Source of the DNA: Heliocidaris erythrogramma
Taxonomy: Eukaryota; Echinodermata; Echinoidea; Camarodonta; Echinometridae
Length of the DNA stretch: 64,000 nt
Reading direction: 5' to 3'
Assembly (NCBI GenBank): GCA_025617745.1
Contig: CM046853.1
Span: 31,671,313 to 31,735,312 of the forward strand
Below, one piece after another: positions 1,007-60,617 of this stretch (within the stretch, counting starts at the first letter, position 1; the number at the start of each line of letters is the position of its first letter). Below the pieces are notes generated by a model. The model searched no databases, was not told where the DNA came from, and was given only the letters and a program-made list of their open reading frames with translations. Position numbers and translations under genes: made by a program.

Positions 1007-1019
1007 AAAACAGATTTAG
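1007..1019 (+). repeat. Left 13-bp target-site duplication of the tRNA-like array
   Basis: The sequence aaaacagatttag occurs here and again at 4604-4616, immediately outside the two ends of the array. The last bases (ttag) may overlap the unit sequence at the left junction, so the true length could be 9 to 13 bp. Confidence 0.75.
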
Positions 1020-1130
1020 TAAACGAAGAAGCTTGACTGGGGAGGAATTTTTTAATTTGTAAACAAATCTTTCGGCATATTACTCCCAGTGTTAAAGATC
1101 GGTAATGAAAAACACAAGTCAGAAAAAATT

Positions 1131-2076
1131 GGAACCAGCGGGATTCGAACCTGTCATCTACTGCTTGCCGGGCAGCGACTGAACCACCAGGCTATTCTGG
1201 TTCACGGCCAAGTCACGACGAACTAGAATCAAATACCCAAGATCCTCTTCTTTCTGACTCATTAATATTCAAACGGTCCGCCGTGGAACAATGGTTAGTA
1301 AACGAAGAAGCTTGACTGGGGAGGAATTTTTTAATTTGTAAACAAATCTTTCGGCATATTACTCCCAGTGTTAAAGATCGTATGCTCGATCTGTAATGAA
1401 AAACACAAGTCAGAAAAAATTGGAACCGGCGGGATTCGAACCTGTCATCTACTGCTTGCCGGGCAGCGACTTAACCACCAGGCTATTCTGGTTCACGGCC
1501 AAGTCACGACGAACTAGAATCAAATACCCAAGATCCTCTTCTTTCTGACTCATTAATATTCAAACGGTCCGCCGTGGAACAATGGTTAGTAAACGAAGAA
1601 GCTTGACTGGGAGGAATTTTTTAATTTGTAAACAAATCTTTCGGCATATTACTCCCAGTGTTAAAGATCGTATGCTCGATCTGTAATGAAAAACACAAGT
1701 CAGAAAAAATTGGAACCAGCGGGATTCGAACCTGTCATCTACTGCTTGCCGGGCAGCGACTTAACCACCAGGCTATTCTGGTTCACGGCCAAGTCACGAC
1801 GAACTAGAATCAAATACCCAAGATCCTCTTCTTTCTGACTCATTAATATTCAAACGGTCCGCCGTGGAACAATGGTTAGTAAACGAAGAAGCTTGACTGG
1901 GGAGGAATTTTTTAATTTGTAAACAAATCTTTCGGCATATTACTCCCAGTGTTAAAGATCGTATGCTCGATCTGTAATGAAAAAACACAAGTCAGAAAAA
2001 ATTGGAACCAGCGGGATTCGAACCTGTCATCTACTGCTTGCCGGGCAGCGACTTAACCACCAGGCTATTCTGGTTC
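1131..2076 (-). ncRNA. tRNA-like sequences, minus-strand block (4 complete copies)
   Basis: Complete 73-nt copies lie at 1131-1203, 1422-1494, 1712-1784 and 2004-2076. Read on the minus strand, each has an A-box-like TAGCCTGGTGG and a perfect B box GGTTCGAATCC. A 7-bp terminal stem (GAACCAG with CTGGTTC) and an anticodon-like 5-bp stem with loop CCGGCAA can be drawn. Against a working tRNA: the T stem has two mismatches if the B box is placed canonically, the acceptor is out of register by one base, and loop position 33 is C rather than T. If read as an anticodon it would be GGC (Ala). I regard these as tRNA-derived promoter modules rather than functional tRNA genes. The copy at 1131 has a 12-bp deletion just outside the tRNA-like part. 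Confidence 0.7.
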
Positions 2077-2294
2077 ACGGCCAAGTCACGACGAACTAGA
2101 ATCAAATACCCAAGATCCTCTTCTTTCTGACTCATTAATATTCAAACGGTCCGCCGTGGAACAATGGTTAGTAAACGAAGAAGCTTGACTGGGGAGGAAT
2201 TTTTTAATTTGTAAACAAATCTTTCGGCATATTACTCCCAGTGTTAAAGATCGTATGCTCGATCTGTAATGAAAAACACAAGTCAGAAAAAATT

Positions 2295-2361
2295 GGAACC
2301 AGCGGGATTCGAACCTGTCATCTACTGCTTGCCGGGCAGCGACTTAACCACCAGGCTATTC
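2295..2361 (-). ncRNA. Truncated tRNA-like copy at the inversion point
   Basis: The fifth minus-oriented copy loses its last bases (the 5' end of the tRNA-like sequence), because the array switches orientation here. Confidence 0.75.
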
Positions 2362-2368
2362 CACCAGG
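2362..2368. other. Inversion junction of the tandem array
   Basis: Minus-oriented sequence ends at ..ggctattc and plus-oriented sequence resumes at ggtatttgattc. The few bases between them (caccag) match ccaccagg about 15 bp upstream and so look like templated filler. Both arms use different points of the 291-bp unit, so this is not a simple palindrome of one boundary. Confidence 0.7.
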
Positions 2369-2401
2369 GTATTTGATTCTAGTTCGTCGTGACTTGGCCG
2401 T

Positions 2402-4512
2402 GAACCAGAATAGCCTGGTGGTTAAGTCGCTGCCCGGCAAGCAGTAGATGACAGGTTCGAATCCCGCTGGTTCCAATTTTTTCTGACTTGTGTTTTTCAT
2501 TACAGATCGAGCATACGATCTTTAACACTGGGAGTAATATGCCGAAAGATTTGTTTACAAATTAAAAAATTCCTCCCCAGTCAAGCTTCTTCGTTTACTA
2601 ACCATTGTTCCACGGCGGACCGTTTGAATATTAATGAGTCAGAAAGAAGAGGATCTTGGGTATTTGATTCTAGTTCGTCGTGACTTGGCCGTGAACCAGA
2701 ATAGCCTGGTGGTTAAGTCGCTGCCCGGCAAGCAGTAGATGACAGGTTCGAATCCCGCTGGTTCCAATTTTTTCTGACTTGTGTTTTTCATTACAGATCG
2801 AGCATACGATCTTTAACACTGGGAGTAATATGCCGAAAGATTTGTTTACAAATTAAAAAATTCCTCCCCAGTCAAGCTTCTTCGTTTACTAACCATTGTT
2901 CCACGGCGGACCGTTTGAATATTAATGAGTCAGAAAGAAGAGGATCTTGGGTATTTGATTCTAGTTCGTCGTGACTTGGCCGTGAACCAGAATAGCCTGG
3001 TGGTTAAGTCGCTGCCCGGCAAGCAGTAGATGACAGGTTCGAATCCCGCTGGTTTCAATTTTTTCTGACTTGTGTTTTTCATTACAGATCGAGCATACGA
3101 TCTTTAACACTGGGAGTAATATGCCGAAAGATTTGTTTACAAATTAAAAAATTCCTCCCCAGTCAAGCTTCTTCGTTTACTAACCATTGTTCCACGGCGG
3201 ACCGTTTGAATATTAATGAGTCAGAAAGAAGAGGATCTTGGGTATTTGATTCTAGTTCGTCGTGACTTGGCCGTGAACCAGAATAGCCTGGTGGTTAAGT
3301 CGCTGCCCGGCAAGCAGTAGATGACAGGTTCGAATCCCGCTGGTTCCAATTTTTTCTGACTTGTGTTTTTTCATTACAGATCGAGCATACGATCTTTAAC
3401 ACTGGGAGTAATATGCCGAAAGATTTGTTTACAAATTAAAAAATTCCTCCCCAGTCAAGCTTCTTCGTTTACTAACCATTGTTCCACGGCGGACCGTTTG
3501 AATATTAATGAGTCAGAAAGAAGAGGATCTTGGGTATTTGATTCTAGTTCGTCGTGACTTGGCCGTGAACCAGAATAGCCTGGTGGTTAAGTCGCTGCCC
3601 GGCAAGCAGTAGATGACAGGTTCGAATCCCGCTGGTTCCAATTTTTTCTGACTTGTGTTTTTCATTACAGATCGAGCATACGATCTTTAACACTGGGAGT
3701 AATATGCCGAAAGATTTGTTTACAAATTAAAAAATTCCTCCCCAGTCAAGCTTCTTCGTTTACTAACCATTGTTCCACGGCGGACCGTTTGAATATTAAT
3801 GAGTCAGAAAGAAGAGGATCTTGGGTATTTGATTCTAGTTCGTCGTGACTTGGCCGTGAACCAGAATAGCCTGGTGGTTAAGTCGCTGCCCGGCAAGCAG
3901 TAGATGACAGGTTCGAATCCCGCTGGTTCCAATTTTTTCTGACTTGTGTTTTTCATTACAGATCGAGCATACGATCTTTAACACTGGGAGTAATATGCCG
4001 AAAGATTTGTTTACAAATTAAAAAATTCCTCCCCAGTCAAGCTTCTTCGTTTACTAACCATTGTTCCACGGCGGACCGTTTGAATATTAATGAGTCAGAA
4101 AGAAGAGGATCTTGGGTATTTGATTCTAGTTCGTCGTGACTTGGCCGTGAACCGGAATAGCCTGGTGGTTAAGTCGCTGCCCGGCAAGCAGTAGATGACA
4201 GGTTCGAATCCCGCCGGTTCCAATTTTTTCTGACTTGTGTTTTTCATTACAGATCGAGCATACGATCTTTAACACTGGGAGTAATATGCCGAAAGATTTG
4301 TTTACAAATTAAAAAATTCCTCCCCAGTCAAGCTTCTTCGTTTACTAACCATTGTTCCACGGCGGACCGTTTGAATATTAATGAGTCAGAAAGAAGAGGA
4401 TCTTGGGTATTTGATTCTAGTTCGTCGTGACTTGGCCGTGAACCAGAATAGCCTGGTGGTTAAGTCGCTGCCCGGCAAGCAGTAGATGACAGGTTCGAAT
4501 CCCGCTGGTTCC
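2402..4512 (+). ncRNA. tRNA-like sequences, plus-strand block (8 copies)
   Basis: Copies lie at 2402-2474, 2693-2765, 2984-3056, 3275-3347, 3567-3639, 3858-3930, 4149-4221 and 4440-4512. Each is followed within two bases by TTTTTT, a pol III-type terminator. The copy at 2984 has GGTTTC instead of GGTTCC at its 3' end. The others are nearly identical, which implies recent amplification or homogenisation. Confidence 0.75.
4149..4221 (+). ncRNA. tRNA-like copy with a compensatory base-pair change
   Basis: In this copy GAACCAG has become GAACCGG, and the opposing CTGGTTC has become CCGGTTC. This exchanges an A-T pair for G-C in the terminal stem. The minus-strand copy at 1422-1494 has only the 3' half of the change. 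A paired substitution in near-identical repeats suggests selection on the stem, although one event is weak evidence. Confidence 0.7.
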
Positions 4513-4603
4513 AATTTTTTCTGACTTGTGTTTTTCATTACAGATCGAGCATACGATCTTTAACACTGGGAGTAATATGCCGAAAGATTTGTTTACAAAT
4601 TAA

Positions 4604-4616
4604 AAAACAGATTTAG
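4604..4616 (+). repeat. Right 13-bp target-site duplication of the tRNA-like array
   Basis: aaaacagatttag, identical to 1007-1019, directly follows the A-run that ends the last unit. Confidence 0.75.
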
Positions 4617-5026: not shown

Positions 5027-5548
5027 TTAATATACGTCATCGTCATCCAGCACTTGCCCCATTATATACATCACTCTTTCTTTCTTCCTATTCTTCTCCA
5101 CGTCATCCTCTCCGGACCCCTCGTCGTCCAAATCGCTATCGGGGTCGTCGAGCATCATGGCGATCTTCGGGTAGATCTTACGGATCAGCTCTTCGATACC
5201 GTAATACGCCACCGACCAGATGAAACCCTCGATGGGCATCGAGATGCTGAAGATGGACACCAGTGTGAGCACCTCATGGAGAGCAGTTTCATCGTCGGCG
5301 AAATAGTTCCAGGCCATAGCGGTCGCGATGAACCAATTTGGGGTGCCCACAGCGAGCGAGACCGCGCTGCAAGCCTCGTAGGGAAGTTTGAAAAGGGTAG
5401 CAAGGATGAGCCCGAAAACGAACCCGACGAAGGGCAGGAGTATGCCACCCACCCATAGCTGCCAGTCACCGATATAGTGATCGGGGTTACTGATACCGTT
5501 GAGTATGGGACAGGCAACGACGGTTACTACAAAAGCCCAGCTGCAAAT
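5027..5548 (-). CDS. SLC10-family transporter, copy A, last exon (C-terminal half)
   Basis: This is the terminal exon of a minus-strand sodium/bile-acid cotransporter family (SLC10/SBF) gene. A polypyrimidine tract and TCACAG precede the exon, which opens ICSWAFVVTVVACPILNG and then runs through the last membrane segments (GGILLPFVGFVFGLILATLF, SLAVGTPNWFIA, SIFSISMPIEGFIWSVAYYG). It closes with an acidic cytosolic tail (DDPDSDLDDEGSGEDD) and a TAA at 5027-5029. It aligns along its length with 47482-48000 of copy B, sharing exon start, phase 0 and acidic tail. SLC10 members normally have a conserved ETGxQN sodium-site motif in this part; here the position reads AVGTPN, so sodium coupling may be absent. 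Family membership is firm; substrate and subfamily (SLC10A3/A5-like is my guess) are inference. Confidence 0.85.
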   Translation of the reverse strand: MCSWAFVVTVVACPILNGISNPDHYIGDWQLWVGGILLPFVGFVFGLILATLFKLPYEACSAVSLAVGTPNWFIATAMAWNYFADDETALHEVLTLVSIFSISMPIEGFIWSVAYYGIEELIRKIYPKIAMMLDDPDSDLDDEGSGEDDVEKNRKKERVMYIMGQVLDDDDVY

Positions 5549-5640
5549 CTGTGAGGAAGATTTAAAAAAAAAACAGAAACAAAACAAACAAACAGTGGAA
5601 ATGATAACTAGCAACAAAAAAAAGAAGAGAAATAGGATGA

Positions 5641-5784
5641 TCGCGCAAACGAACCCGACGAAGGGTAGGAGTATGCCACCCACCCATAGCCAGCTGCCAA
5701 GCACCGACATAATGAGCGGGGGTTACTGATATCGTTGATAATGGGAAATACAATGACAGTCACTATAAATGCCCAGCTGCAAAT
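5641..5784 (-). pseudogene. Duplicated, frameshifted fragment of the copy A last exon
   Basis: Directly upstream of the real last exon (minus sense) is a second copy of its first ~145 bp, complete with an acceptor-like TCTCAG and the start ICSWAFIVTVIVFPIIND. A run of five C's, against four in the true exon, shifts the frame after ISNP, and the copy stops where the intron-like pyrimidine tract resumes. It arose by tandem duplication of the exon's 5' part; splicing to it would give a truncated product. Confidence 0.75.
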
Positions 5785-5952
5785 CTGAGAGGAAGAATCA
5801 CTGGGAAGAAAAAAAACCCAAGCAATTGAAATGATAATGTACAGAGGACCGAAATAAAATTTTGATTTTTGTATTTCAGTATTTTTATGACCATATTTAG
5901 GTAGAGCATGATGGAAAACGTTCACACATCAAATTTGACATGAATCAGTTCT

Positions 5953-13895: not shown

Positions 13896-14021
13896 GACCA
13901 AGCTTAAAAATTCAGCGTCCGGGTTTAAATTTTAGTAGAATACACACGAAATAAATCCCGGAGCAATAGTCGCCGAAGCAAGAGTCGGATCACCAAAGAC
14001 GACACAATGCAACGTACGTAC

Positions 14022-14332
14022 CCGACAATGACGAACCCCCCGCCGTAGTAGACTAGCACGGCACAGAATGGCGATACCGGGCACACAGAGAGAATGATCA
14101 TGGAGAGCGCATCGAATACTTTCATGTCGAGTAGGAGAGCGAGGAGATAACCGACCAGGGGTTGGATGAAGTACTGGAGTCCCAGCCCGATCATGACGCT
14201 CTGCGGTAGGTGCATCTCTTTGCGGGAGAAATCGTCCATGGAGATGAAGCAGCCCATACCGAACATGACCACGGCTGTACCGAGGTAGCTGATGATTACC
14301 ATGGCCATAAGAAACAAATCGGGGGAATGGTC
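14022..14332 (-). CDS. SLC10-family transporter, copy A, core membrane exon
   Basis: The acceptor TTCTCTAG precedes the exon, and the donor GG|GTACGT splits a glycine codon exactly as in copy B. The translation starts DHSPDLFLMAMVIISYLGTA and contains FGMGCFISMDDFSRKE (equivalent to the SLC10 FALGCNVEIKKF region), a helix LQYFIQPLVGYLLALLLDMK, and IILSVCPVSPFCAVLVYYGG. In SLC10 proteins CCPGGTASN normally contributes to the sodium site; here GGTASN is replaced by VSPFCA. This 311-bp exon is followed by a 7.2-kb intron packed with repeats before the next exon at 6836. Confidence 0.85.
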
Positions 14333-14767
14333 CTAGAGAATGAAACCGTCGCACAAAGATATGGTTTATGTATTGTTATTTTATCAATTATGACAATGCT
14401 TTTGAAAAGAAAGAAGATTTTTTTTTTACTTGTTCCTAAGGTTTTGCTCCGGACCGCTTCTCGTGGTTTGACTGCATGGGTCCTTAATTATAATCCATTG
14501 AAAATAAAGTTTTTTAAAATGAGAAGTAAAATAACAGAAGTTTTTAAAACTGTCATTGCTCCGGATCGCTTTTCATCTTACTGATGGTTCCACCAGTTTC
14601 GTAACATTCATTAAAAATATCTAAATATCACTTCTTTCTCTTGAATAAAACTATTTGAATTTCTTCACTTCGTTATCTTTTATAGTAAAGTAAAGAATTT
14701 GTAAAGTCATGTAGATCTATAGCACGCTCATTTCCATACTGAACTACGACTTTAGACATGTTAGAGA

Positions 14768-24667: not shown

Positions 24668-24949
24668 AATATTTTTGAATAAAAATCGACAGTTTTGTTG
24701 GTATTTGAAAGGCTACGCGTAGACAAAATGGTAATTGAGTGATTACATAATGTTTCCCCATTACGCAGGTGACATTATAACATGAGAAATTGGGATTACG
24801 TAATAAATTCTTTTGTTGTAGACTATAAAAGCCTATGCATATGATATTCTGTCCCTTTCCCTGATTTAGCACTGTGTATAAGAAGGTTGCATTTTTTCGA
24901 GTTCCTTGTACCGTTTGAAATAAAAATCGGTAGAGACGTTCCCTGGACT

Positions 24950-25972
24950 ATGCCTGGTCCAACGGCAACAGCAACACGCGAGAGAGTGGTAGCACTGCGA
25001 CAGGAGGGCTACAAGCAGACTGATATCGCAGAAGTCCTAGGGATATCACAGAGTGCAGTCTCTAAGATCCTGAAACGTCAACGTGAGGCGGGGAATGTGC
25101 GGCCACGGAAATCTCCCGGACGTCCCAGATTGACCACAAGAAGAGATGATCGCCAACTGTTGAATTTCAGCCGCAGAAACCGGAAATTGCCCACGAGCCG
25201 TCTTCGTCGCTTGTGGAGGAGATATCATGGGATCAACGTTTCCCGGTCAACCGTTAATCGCAGATTGCTCCAACATGGTTACCGAGCACGACGGTTGACC
25301 AAATGTCCACGCCTGTCTGTTCGCCACAGAGTAGCTCGTCTTCTTTGGGCTAGGGAGCACAGAAGGCTTCATCCAGGACATTGGCAACATGTGGTCTTCA
25401 CGGACGAGAGCCGGTTCATCCTTGATCGAAAGGATGGGAGACAACGAGTTCGTCGATTAGCCGGGGAAAACCTTCGCGATGAATGTATCCACGAGACGAC
25501 TCAAGGCGGAGGCGGCTCAGTGATGATATGGGCCGGCATCCATTATGGAGGGAAAACGCCACTGGTGGTTCCGGACGGAAACGTCAACGCCGCCGCCTAC
25601 AGGGATATCTTGGAGTTCCACTGTCTTCCATATGCAAGACGAGTGTATGGGCACAATTTCCGACTGCAGGATGACAACGCTAGACCGCACAGGGCCGCTG
25701 CAGTAAGGGAATTCCTGGAGGCAGAGGGCGTCGTACAGTTGCCATGGCCAGCTTGTTCGCCGGATATGAACCCCATAGAGCATGCATGGGATGCCCTAGG
25801 CCGAGCCATCAACGACAGAGAGGTCATTCCTCAAAATCTGCAGGAGTTGGCAGATGCTCTGAGGGAAGAATGGGACGCTATGCCTGTTGACGTCATCAAC
25901 AAGCTAGTGGACAGCATGCCACGACGTCTGCATGCGCTGGTTCGTGCCAGGGGTGGACAAACCCGATACTAG
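24950..25972 (+). CDS. Tc1-family transposase (DD34E), intact
   Basis: The transposase cuts and pastes the enclosing element at TA sites. I take the ATG at 24950 (MPGPTATATRERVVALRQEG), giving 340 residues, the usual length for Tc1 transposases; the frame is open 21 codons further upstream. In order: a helix-turn-helix (DIAEVLGISQSAVSKILKRQ, about residues 25-45), a GRPR-type hinge (SPGRPR), a second helix-turn-helix (NVSRSTVNRRLLQHGYRA), then the DDE domain with FTDES, a glycine-rich GGGGSVMIWAG, QDDNARPH and SPDMNPIEHAW. The second D and the E are separated by 34 residues. No frameshift or stop is seen. GC content is clearly above that of the flanks, which fits a relatively young arrival. 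Confidence 0.95.
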   Translation: MPGPTATATRERVVALRQEGYKQTDIAEVLGISQSAVSKILKRQREAGNVRPRKSPGRPRLTTRRDDRQLLNFSRRNRKLPTSRLRRLWRRYHGINVSRSTVNRRLLQHGYRARRLTKCPRLSVRHRVARLLWAREHRRLHPGHWQHVVFTDESRFILDRKDGRQRVRRLAGENLRDECIHETTQGGGGSVMIWAGIHYGGKTPLVVPDGNVNAAAYRDILEFHCLPYARRVYGHNFRLQDDNARPHRAAAVREFLEAEGVVQLPWPACSPDMNPIEHAWDALGRAINDREVIPQNLQELADALREEWDAMPVDVINKLVDSMPRRLHALVRARGGQTRY

Positions 25973-31561: not shown

Positions 31562-32400
31562 AATAACCATGGTTTTACTGTCATAACCATGGTTTTACCA
31601 TCATAACCATGGAAAACCATGGTTTTACAATGGACCAATAACCATTTATGGTTTTGCCATCAAATCCATGGTAAAACCATGGATAAACCATGGTTTTACC
31701 ATGGTTATAAAACCATGGTTAAATTACCATGGATAAACCATGGTTTTACCATGGTTATGAGAGCCATGGTTTTACCATGGTTATAGAACCAGGGTTAAAC
31801 CATGGTTTCACCATGATTTTGGCTGTAAAAGCATGGTTATACCATAGTTTTGGTTGTAAATCCATTATTATACTATGGTTCTACCATGGATTGGATTGTA
31901 AAACCATAGTGATACCAGTGATTTTGATACCGTGGTTTTGAGTTTTGATTGTAAAAGCCATGGTTCTACCGTGGATTTGATTGTAAAACCATGGTTATAC
32001 AGCGGTTTTGCTTGTATAACCATGGTTATACCACGTTATTACCATGGTTAAAATAACCATCTATAAACCATGGTTAAAAGAAACCGTGGTTATAGCCGTT
32101 ATAGACCATGGTTAATCCACGGTTTTACCATGGTTAAAAAACCATGGTTAAACCATGGTTTCACCATGATTTTGGCTGTAAAAGCATGGTTATACCGTAG
32201 TTTTGGTTGTTAATCCATTATTATACCATGGTTCTACCGTGGATTTGATTGTAAAACCGTGGTGATACCGTGGTTTTGATTGATTATGGTGATACCGTGG
32301 TTTTGATGATTGTAAAACCCATGGTTATACCATGGTTCTACCGTTGGTTTGGTTGTATAACCATGGTTATACCGTGGATTTGATTGTAAAACCAATAGAA
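31562..32400. repeat. CCATGG palindromic satellite, block 1
   Basis: Dozens of imperfect units built from AACCATGGTT and AACCATGGTTTTACCATGG, with variants such as ACCGTGGTT and linkers TTTTGGCTGTAAAAGCATGG and GATTTGATTGTAAAACC. Each core is self-complementary (NcoI site), so single strands can fold in many registers. Confidence 0.9.
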
Positions 32401-32875
32401 ACCACTTAATTTGCATATTAAATACTGGGTGCTTGTGTATTCACGTTTTCATATTATTTATTAAAATTTGCAGTACATTTCTTCATTGTTGATGATTTAG
32501 AGTACACCAAAACGTTTATCAAATACAAAGATGGGTCAACAAACGATTACTAGAACAATTCATTCACTGGTATCAATTACAGGTAATTAAACAGTAATTA
32601 AGGAAACACTAACCAGGAACTAAAATATGTTCATTCAATACATATATATATGGACGATTCCCTCACATTTCAAAATATGCAAAGTCTTCAAAATTCCATT
32701 GCACTTTGGAAGTATTGCAGACATACCAACTTTGTTGCTATTGCCACTGGTAGTTACTAGTACAAGAGTTTCATATCTTGTAACATACCAAGGTCAAATA
32801 GTTAAACTGGTTATACTGGTTTTCACTGGTCTAAGTGATTGGACTTGTAGAAATTTCTTTCTGGGTTTACCGTCG
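32401..32875. other. AT-rich interruption of the CCATGG satellite
   Basis: No CCATGG cores and no gene. It is probably an insertion or spacer between the two satellite blocks. Confidence 0.5.
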
Positions 32876-33312
32876 TAACGATGGATAAACCATGGTTTTA
32901 CAATGGACCAATAACCATATAATTTATGGTTTTGCAATCAGAGCAAAAAAAAAGGTTTAAAAAGTTAAAAAACCATGGTTATAGAATCCACGGTTTTACC
33001 ATGGTTAAAAAACCATTGTTAAACCATGGTTTTACCATGGAATTGGCTGTAAAAGCATGGTTATACCGTAGTTTTGGTTGTAAATCCATGGTTTTGATTG
33101 TTATACCGTGGTTTTGGTTGTAAAAGCCATTGTTCTACCGTGGATTTGATTGTAAAACCATGGTTATACAGCGGTTTTGGTTGTAAAACCATGGTTTTAA
33201 ACCACGGTAAATCCATGTTAAAACCATGGTAAATCCATGGTATGTCCGTCCAATTTACCATGGTAAAACCATGGTTTTACCGTGGTTTTACCGTACCATG
33301 GAAACCATGGGT
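32876..33312. repeat. CCATGG palindromic satellite, block 2
   Basis: Same motif family as 31562-32400, including the shared linkers GGCTGTAAAAGCATGGTTAT and ATACAGCGGTTTTGGTTGTA, which suggests the blocks were once continuous. Confidence 0.85.
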
Positions 33313-47481: not shown

Positions 47482-48000
47482 TCAAGCATCATACTCGTCA
47501 TGCTTGTAATGGTCAGACAATTTGATGTCCACCGGTGCAATGATGTCCGACCCCGCATCGTCCATTTCTATGACCTCAAACTCCTCGTCATCATCATCGG
47601 CATCGTTGCAGCAGCACTTGGGAGACATCTGAGTGACGAACTCTTGGATGCTGCGGAACATGATGGACCACACGAACGCTTCGATGGGCAGCGTGATACT
47701 GATGATGGTCAGGAGCGCGTACACCTCATGCAGGGTTTTCTCGTCGTCCGAGAAGAACCGGGTGGATAGACTCTTGGCAATGAACCAGTTGGGCATGCCG
47801 ACGGCCAGCGAGATGGCGCTGCAGACTTGGAAGGGGAGGTTGAAGAAGAGTGAGAGGAAGAGGCCACAGAGGAAGCCGGTCAAGGGGAGAACTATGGCGA
47901 TGGTCCAGATGTGCCAGTCGGCCATGAAGTCTTGAGGGTAGGCGATGCCGTTCAGGACCGGGCCGAGGACGACGGCGACCCAGAAAGCATTGCTGAGAAC
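47482..48000 (-). CDS. SLC10-family transporter, copy B, last exon
   Basis: The acceptor TTCGTAG precedes VLSNAFWVAVVLGPVLNGIA. The exon then encodes the C-terminal helices (WTIAIVLPLTGFLCGLFLSL, SAISLAVGMPNWFIAKSLS, LLTIISITLPIEAFVWSIMF) and an acidic tail (CNDADDDDEEFEVIEMDD) ending in TGA at 47482-47484. Phase 0 matches the donor of the previous exon. SLC10 proteins import bile acids or sulphated steroids with sodium in characterised members. The ETGxQN sodium-site motif is AVGMPN here, as in copy A, so transport mode is uncertain. Confidence 0.92.
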   Translation of the reverse strand, partial: VLSNAFWVAVVLGPVLNGIAYPQDFMADWHIWTIAIVLPLTGFLCGLFLSLFFNLPFQVCSAISLAVGMPNWFIAKSLSTRFFSDDEKTLHEVYALLTIISITLPIEAFVWSIMFRSIQEFVTQMSPKCCCNDADDDDEEFEVIEMDDAGSDIIAPVDIKLSDHYKHDEYDA

Positions 48001-60231: not shown

Positions 60232-60244
60232 AATAGTTAACCAG
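60232..60244 (+). repeat. Left 13-bp duplication of the solo tRNA-like element
   Basis: AATAGTTAACCAG, repeated exactly at 60605-60617. Confidence 0.9.
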
Positions 60245-60604
60245 ATAATTACAGATCGAGCATACGATCTTTAACACTGGGAGTAATATGCCGAAAGATT
60301 TGTTTACAAATTAAAAATTCCTCCCCAGTCAAGCTTCTTCGTTTACTAACCATTGTTCCACGGCGGACCGTTTGAATATTAATGAGTCAGAAAGAAGAGG
60401 ATCTTGGGTATTTGATTCTAGTTCGTCGTGACTTGGCCGTGAACCAGAATAGCCTGGTGGTTAAGTCGCTGCCCGGCAAGCAGTAGATGACAGGTTCGAA
60501 TCCCGCTGGTTCCAATTTTTTCTGACTTGTGTTTTTCATTACAGATCGAGCATACGATCTTTAACACTGGAGTAATATGCCGAAAGATTTGTTTACAAAT
60601 TAAA
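60245..60604 (+). mobile_element. Solo copy of the 291-bp tRNA-like element
   Basis: It begins near ATTACAGATCGAGC, runs through one full unit and ends ACAAATTAAAAA. Because it is about 1.24 units long it carries direct terminal repeats (60248-60317 and 60538-60604) around one tRNA-like module. It shares its 3' end exactly with the right end of the array at 4603 and is nested inside the Harbinger-like remnant. The perfect 13-bp duplication identifies it as an independent insertion. Confidence 0.88.
60441..60513 (+). ncRNA. tRNA-like module of the solo element
   Basis: Sequence identical to the common plus-strand copies of the array, with intact A-box-like and B-box sequences and the T6 run immediately after. 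Confidence 0.75.
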
Positions 60605-60617
60605 AATAGTTAACCAG
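60605..60617 (+). repeat. Right 13-bp duplication of the solo tRNA-like element
   Basis: AATAGTTAACCAG, identical to 60232-60244. Confidence 0.9.

Follow-up and report, generated by a model that had tools for sequence, protein, structure and literature searches.

The stretch of DNA analysed here (the window) comprises 64,000 nucleotides of Heliocidaris erythrogramma (GenBank assembly GCA_025617745.1, contig CM046853.1, positions 31,671,313 to 31,735,312) and contains two copies of an element built of a 291-bp unit. The larger copy is an array of about 12.3 units (1016-4607), and the smaller one is a solo copy of 1.23 units in a single orientation (60248-60606), in agreement with a preliminary description of the window that had counted about 12 and about 1.24 units. 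The 13-bp target duplications of different sequence named there (aaaacagatttag around the array and aatagttaaccag around the solo copy) and the right end common to both copies (ACAAATTAAAAA, unit 193-194) were also recovered. The units, duplications and right end of the array thus stood, but its reading as a single array did not, since the inversion had been missed: the array consists of two opposed arms meeting head to head at 2361/2367, of which the minus arm runs from unit 226 to unit 33 and the plus arm from unit 283 to unit 194. The proposed layout, in which the copies have the 3' end in common and differ at the 5' end, had to be abandoned: in two-arm copies, both outer ends are starts of complementary DNA (cDNA) and the variable ends meet centrally. 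The left end of the array (unit 226) is a recurrent start site, designated site B, and not a random 5' truncation.

Features of the two element copies in the window. Unit positions refer to the 291-bp reference unit.
Feature	Position	Strand	Basis
Left target-site duplication of the array, aaaacagatttag, with AAAC before it	1007..1019	.	sequence
B arm, 4.6 units; outer end at start site B (unit 226), inner end at unit 33	1016..2361	-	
5-nt filler at the head-to-head junction	2362..2366	.	
A arm, 7.7 units; outer end at start site A (unit 194)	2367..4607	+	
291-bp reference unit for all comparisons	2376..2666	+	
tRNA-like domain, unit 27-99	2402..2474	+	sub-threshold: tRNA 17.4, tRNA-Sec 19.4 bits
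TTTTTT directly 3' of the tRNA-like domain, potential pol III stop	2477..2482	+	
Predicted stem-loop GATTTG-TTTA-CAAATT plus A run, unit 173-194; start site A at its end	2548..2569	+	
Start site B region, unit 217-235	2592..2610	+	
Right target-site duplication of the array, aaaacagatttag	4604..4616	.	
Left target-site duplication of the solo copy, aatagttaaccag, with AAAC before it	60232..60244	.	
One-arm copy, 1.23 units (unit 124-291, then 1-193), ending at site A	60248..60606	+	
Right target-site duplication of the solo copy, aatagttaaccag	60605..60617	.	

When the genome (1.064 Gb in 26 contigs) was searched with the unit, at least 172 DNA matches were obtained on many contigs (40 of 479 candidates scored), and an exact 24-mer of the unit (170-193) occurred at 5,900 places, as compared to none for the reversed control. 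Fifty-eight loci were read, namely the 36 best DNA matches, the two window copies and 20 loci taken by position on the first contig; this positional sample represents 20 of 46 further clusters among the first 100 of the 5,900 24-mer places. The diverged second piece of the mixed locus L051 was included in the allele counts and excluded from the counts of anatomy, divergence and inner ends. According to these loci and the 24-mer count, the unit is a small tandem repeat, dispersed and accompanied by target duplications. The dispersal and the duplications foreseen in the preliminary description were thus found, the latter in most copies, whereas its single common end gave way to two alternative ends, A and B.

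Two arms were detected in 47 of the 58 loci, always in the order minus then plus (47/47), and the opposite order was absent from the 11 remaining loci. The positional sample contained 14 two-arm loci among 20, and both strands were represented in 21 of the 49 24-mer clusters formed by the first 100 places, again minus then plus in all 21. The outer ends of the arms fall at site A (unit 178-200, about 193) or at site B (unit 214-236, about 226), with a spacing of about 33 nt; the ends observed cover unit 179-198 for A and 217-235 for B. One A end was combined with one B end in 41 of the 47 two-arm loci; A/A did not occur, B/B occurred once (L038), and five loci had another end. Among the 42 loci with both ends classed, one pair was alike, while half would be expected if the ends were independent, equal draws. 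Arm lengths varied from 34 to 5,862 nt. An overlap of 1-6 nt was present at 34 of the 47 arm junctions, and at five of the 47 the meeting arms agreed in unit position to within 5 nt.

The longest word common to both borders of an insertion measured at least 12 bp in 44 and at least 10 bp in 47 of the 58 loci, whereas in 600 mismatched border pairs it never exceeded 10 bp (0/600 reached 12 bp). In the positional sample a common end word of at least 8 bp was present in all 20 loci and one of at least 12 bp in 16, as compared to 39 of 600 mismatched pairs with at least 8 bp, which were taken from slightly different windows. The duplications are mostly 12-14 bp long. The base preceding the duplication is C in 22 of 46 sites, and the base before that is A in 34; AAC stands directly before the duplication in 16 of the 46 sites (background 1.7%), and 18 sites have GTT at an offset of +12 or +13 (background for the two offsets together 3.3%). 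The AAC before and the GTT after the duplication make the target a palindrome, AAAC-N12-GTTT, each strand of which would be cut before GTTT, leaving 3' overhangs of 12-13 nt. The last four bases of the primer matched the RNA at site B in 27, 22, 27 and 23 of 35 two-arm loci (about 11-12.5 when re-paired) and at site A in 25, 22, 20 and 17 (10-16 when re-paired), although part of this excess arises because the duplication was extended as far as the matching. An empty site was also found: the insert at L035 lies in the 3' region of a Penelope-like element (PLE), and the paralogue L093 has GAGTATAATATAG once and uninterrupted. The target duplications and the recurrent cDNA starts bear out the earlier proposal of target-primed reverse transcription.

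Divergence, counted without pieces shorter than 80 nt or below 93% identity, bases near piece ends and the A run (unit 189-194), amounted to 0.24% within an arm, 0.36% between the arms of one locus and 0.97% between arrays. The substitution spectrum was compiled for arrays of at least four units in the 38-locus set. Here, 35 substitutions were confined to a single unit, 13 occurred in all units (common subfamily alleles included) and two in all units but one; six had intermediate unit counts, four of them in L051. Allele counts, which omit pieces shorter than 60 nt and bases near piece ends, revealed haplotypes filling whole arrays. C128T occupied all readable units in 11 of the 12 carrier arrays of the 38-locus set and 19 of the 20 units of L070, T219C all 26 units of L058, C151A all five units of L042, and T70C all five unit pieces of L044, on both arms. 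The rare alleles weigh more, because C128T and T219C are common subfamily alleles. Genome-wide, T70C was found at 19 places. L044 accounts for four of these and a short head-to-head copy for two, and the other 13 are single. T139C occurred at 59 places in about 36 loci and at more than one place in 10 of these, with eight and six places in the largest; in six of the 10 it lies on both strands, minus then plus, including loci with four plus four and three plus three places at a spacing of 290-291 nt. The T139C arrays were located by position, and the sequence was read for L057 alone. With substitutions mostly in a single unit or in all units, and with haplotypes specific to arrays, each array seems to have grown from one founding monomer. 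Taken together with the free arm lengths, the haplotypes are best explained by a circle that was copied repeatedly, a circular form of the template being the most likely one. The array haplotypes are also in keeping with the previous suggestion that one unit, as a circle or a concatemer, was copied again and again. As a separate observation, most full units of L080 measure about 297-298 bp, and this length is an array-wide haplotype.

In comparison with 100 shuffles each, the predicted circular fold of the unit was more stable for the plus strand (z = -3.4) but not for the minus strand (-0.36). The fold contains a predicted 15-bp helix (102-116 with 259-273) that parts the half with the transfer RNA (tRNA)-like domain from the half with sites A and B, and a predicted stem-loop directly before site A. 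The preliminary description had assigned to the unit a tRNA-like promoter module for RNA polymerase III (pol III). Sequences recognised by eye, which we take to be an A box (TAGCCTGGTGG) and a B box (GGTTCGAATCC), are present in the domain, but its scores remained below the Rfam thresholds (17.4-19.4 bits; gathering threshold 29 for tRNA) and TTTTTT follows directly after it. The most frequent length of this run was six in 29 of the 30 arrays measured. Since the run lies right behind the domain, a pol III transcript would probably be only about 80 nt long, and the role of the domain may be in processing, ligation or localisation rather than in full-length transcription. ARAGORN found no intron-free tRNA, and an intron-containing tRNA-Trp was rejected as an artefact stitched together from two units. 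A comparison of array-fixed substitutions (two of six paired sites broken) with single-unit ones (15 of 23, from a hand-typed list of 30 changes) was too small to be used in support of the fold. In one unit of the window array A32G and T93C occur together (window 4154 and 4215), changing an A-U pair of the tRNA-like acceptor stem to G-C; T93C stands alone in another unit (window 1428).

The Rfam scan of the window at gathering thresholds gave no match. Matches to mir-3938 and mir-2062 were discarded as the inverted junction folding back on itself. The junction hairpin at window 2326-2443 scores as mir-3938 below threshold, and such hairpins could feed small-RNA pathways. The exact hammerhead core CTGANGA was absent from both strands within the elements of all 58 loci; when up to one mismatch was allowed, the reference unit contained none on the plus strand and one, CTGGGGA, on the minus strand. 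The lack of a hammerhead core reported in the preliminary description was thus corroborated by the motif scan. Rfam searches at E ≤ 5 and E ≤ 10 gave no hammerhead match either. The silence of Rfam is the weaker of the two tests, because Rfam missed the minimal core in L093 described below.

The genome contains many PLEs. Beside L035 we recognised by eye a GIY-YIG endonuclease fragment, which scored 20.0 bits (E 8.6e-4), just under the cut-off of 22.6; a GIY-YIG pattern scan gave no match, and a PDB search with the fragment returned pyruvate kinase matches only, with E values of 0.17 or worse. The frame upstream of the endonuclease frame in this decayed copy appears to be reverse transcriptase-like. 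The best 150 of 5,946 candidate relatives of the fragment were scored, and some of these have open frames of more than 850 amino acids (up to 873). Among these 150 listed matches, 12 opposite-strand neighbours lie within 8 kb, all minus then plus; they were picked by eye, and a recheck of the listed matches by contig added no further pair within 8 kb. Two pairs stand in tandem at exactly 2,660 bp (C10:7156656-7162149 and C2:3571652-3574683), the former behind a minus-strand copy, which suggests that the autonomous PLE may also be copied more than once per insertion. The PLE 3' end L093 carries CTGATGAGTGCAGGTCGAAA (333-385), with a CTGATGA...GAAA core and GATAAC/GTTATC arms, which we take, by analogy with PLE hammerheads, to be a minimal hammerhead-like core and which Rfam did not report.

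The enzymology of PLEs is known from the purified protein of an Anolis element, which cuts both target strands, extends them and initiates reverse transcription at two neighbouring sites within the RNA (PMC11167929). The 30-40 nt between these sites make up the PLE 'tail', and an internal, non-homologous initiation site was called unique to PLEs; the integration steps that follow the extension of both strands were described as unvalidated (PMC11167929). Genomic PLE copies have head-to-head inverted pseudo-long terminal repeats (pLTRs), duplications of 8-10 bp in the cases given and a 31-bp tail (PMC3846280). To the extent that these sources describe them, Penelope/Poseidon-clade PLEs thus resemble the 291-nt element in their head-to-head inverted parts, partial tandems, short target duplications, two internal starts, tail of about 31-40 bp and extension of both target strands. 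Unlike PLEs, the 291-nt unit is too short to encode a reverse transcriptase or an endonuclease, its duplications are mostly 12-14 bp instead of the 8-10 bp given for PLEs, and it lacks the hammerhead-like core found in the PLE 3' end L093.

We consider it likely, with a probability of roughly 0.64, that the 291-nt element is a PLE-driven, retrozyme-like non-autonomous retroelement, whose structured and presumably circular RNA serves each of the two nicked target ends as a template for repeated copying. A symmetric endonuclease would nick each strand before GTTT, with the nicks 12-13 nt apart, and each new 3' end would prime reverse transcription at an internal position of the RNA, site A for one and site B, about 33 nt away, for the other. 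Each polymerase would then copy one common RNA, most likely a circle, for anything between 34 nt and about 20 turns, and the two cDNA ends would be joined, mostly via short microhomology, to give a head-to-head array between target duplications. The circle could be formed without a hammerhead core, perhaps by an unknown ribozyme or by tRNA-type processing and ligation.

Several observations weigh against this interpretation. In 11 of the 58 loci one arm was detectable, although in at least one of these apparently one-armed loci, L082, a short B arm had been overlooked by the alignment; in 11 of 58 loci no duplication of at least 10 bp was present. Not all arrays are uniform: T93C occurs in two of the 13 units of the window array, and T139C apparently skips units at C14:23919027-23919924 and C21:31452519-31454050. 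The unit has no convincing similarity to either of the two PLE stretches compared, the decayed copy and the PLE 3' end (E 0.97 and 0.088). The Anolis protein worked in vitro on unprocessed linear RNA, and its start sites were equal on both strands and without homology to the cut DNA (PMC11167929), whereas here the strands use different start sites and a few bases match. In addition, the positions of the inner cDNA ends depart from an even spread around the unit (Rayleigh p of about 0.002 with 94 ends and of about 0.005 with the 58 that belong to arms of at least 291 nt), a degree of non-uniformity that a smoothed-length null equalled in 66 and 54 of 2,000 runs. Unit 147-167 is a hot spot with 18 of the 58 long-arm ends; inner-end position 1 includes arms whose last few bases were lost in the alignment. 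Finally, the A run at unit 189-194 (window 2564-2569) varies within arrays in 35 of 200 units, about five times more often than the T runs (6/189 and 7/206). Its length changes from pass to pass in L074, L061 and L058; counted from site B, the first pass often has one A more than the second (six to five in 10 loci, five to six in three). The hot spot and the A-run variation could reflect stopping and slippage of the polymerase, or else the ends of a linear RNA.

The latter possibility leads to the alternative of linear RNA as the template, in the form of one monomer or of several that end in the A run or near unit 147-167, with the reverse transcriptase jumping from end to end at each pass. 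The contrast between the A run and the T runs, the location of site A at the A run, the different insertions in each of the five passes of L074 and the clustering of long-arm ends at unit 147-167 would all fit this alternative. However, the hot spot spans about 20 nt rather than a single position and does not coincide with the A run, and 40 of the 58 ends are scattered elsewhere. If the RNA ended in the A run, site B would be situated about 32 nt past that end. Besides, alleles present in all units would require many jumps among identical RNAs. We therefore regard a linear monomer as unlikely, even though it survives better than the remaining alternatives.

A comparably improbable variant keeps the rest of the preferred scheme and assigns the enzyme to another retrotransposon with a symmetric endonuclease. 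In its favour, the window also contains a frame with an RVT_1 match for a reverse transcriptase like that of long interspersed nuclear elements (LINEs). On the other hand, internal non-homologous initiation was considered unique to PLEs (PMC11167929), and the 12 opposite-strand neighbours among the listed PLE matches repeat the minus-then-plus order of the 291-nt element.

Twin priming, as in LINE-1 5' inversions, might also have acted on a long linear transcript that came from a homogeneous tandem array already in place. Twin priming yields inverted 5' parts with target duplications, and roughly one fifth of LINE-1 copies are inverted. The 291-nt element shares with it the inverted part, the microhomology at the junction and the target duplication, transcribable arrays do exist, and a homogeneous source would give uniform daughters. 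Unlike in LINE-1, however, most copies are two-armed (47/58, far above the one fifth of LINE-1), both starts lie at recurrent RNA sites, including the second one at site B, one A is paired with one B in 41 of 42 classed loci, and one template unit is copied many times. Moreover, T70C fills one array (L044) and reaches at most two places in other loci. Twin priming of an array transcript thus appears less likely again than a non-PLE enzyme.

The head-to-head structure could arise by self-priming of cDNA or RNA, which has been inferred for Penelope copies of rotifers because their inverted junctions contain palindromes (PMC3846280). Such an origin is very improbable here, as it predicts arms that meet at one unit position, which holds within 5 nt for five of 47 junctions, whereas the outer ends each adjoin the target duplication and correspond to two distinct sites of the RNA. 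Ordinary satellite or segmental DNA amplification with homogenisation by conversion would account for tandem units of low divergence, but it is hardly credible in view of the many contigs, the target duplications, the recurrent ends, the empty site at L093 and the within-array variants that are mostly single-unit or all-unit.

Among known systems, the preferred reading brings the element closest to the metazoan non-long terminal repeat retrozymes with type I hammerheads. According to the reports, these have non-coding units of 170-400 nt in dimers to large multimers and duplications of more than 4 bp, and a circular RNA copied into multimers was proposed for them (PMC7229834, PMC7761336, PMC8969392). 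They may depend on PLEs for their mobility (PMC8969392), and no motif pointing to the partner and no promoter were seen in them (PMC7761336). The 291-nt unit is likewise small, non-coding, multimeric and dispersed with duplications, but differs in lacking a hammerhead core in 58 of 58 loci; the opposed arms, the paired start sites, the palindromic target and the tRNA-like domain seen here are not described for retrozymes in the open-access literature searched. As no hammerhead core was found, the element was not classed as a retrozyme. Judged by the structure of its copies, it appears to work like a PLE-driven metazoan retrozyme that does without the defining hammerhead, and the likeness to retrozymes and PLEs pointed out in the preliminary description is retained.

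Another class to be considered is formed by the tRNA-derived short interspersed nuclear elements (SINEs), which have A and B boxes, are non-coding and are copied through RNA by the enzyme of another element. The 291-nt unit is similarly non-coding with A/B-box-like sequence and would likewise be copied by a foreign enzyme. Unlike in these SINEs, its tRNA-like part is internal, about 123 nt after site A and about 94 nt before the next site A, and the element forms multimers and inverted arms.

A broader reading is that PLE integration in general proceeds by obligatory paired priming. A dimer would nick both strands of the palindrome and place the new 3' ends on a single circular RNA, one at site A and one at site B. 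Each insertion would thus start as one A and one B cDNA rolling round the same circle, and the PLE 'tail' and the inverted pLTR would represent the two halves of this event. The 291-nt element would then be a hammerhead-free RNA circle that parasitises the PLE and owes its formation to an unknown ribozyme or to tRNA-type processing. We regard this generalisation as tentative, its chances being somewhat below even. If the 291-nt element is a passenger of PLEs, its thousands of similar copies would constitute a genomic record of the steps of PLE integration, comprising one A and one B start, a palindromic cut, cDNA of 34-5,862 nt, closing mostly by microhomology and signs of repeated copying of one RNA unit in both arms. 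Such a record would add anatomical evidence to the suggestion, put forward in PMC8969392, that PLEs provide the mobility of retrozyme-like elements in animals. It also suggests that a hammerhead is not needed for such mobility.

Besides the two element copies and the LINE-like frame mentioned above, the window contains several other features. Three minus-strand frames (5030-5722, 13928-14375 and 47485-48000) were assigned by eye to one family of transporter-like membrane proteins; in the profile search of the window frames, a Pfam scan of two of the three gave no match. A long minisatellite region at 31563-33242 is based on the palindrome CCATGG/TTTTACCATGGTT. At 24845-25969 on the plus strand lies a Tc1/mariner-type transposase frame with DDE_3 and HTH_Tnp_Tc3_2 domains, which has a 99% identical relative in public data.

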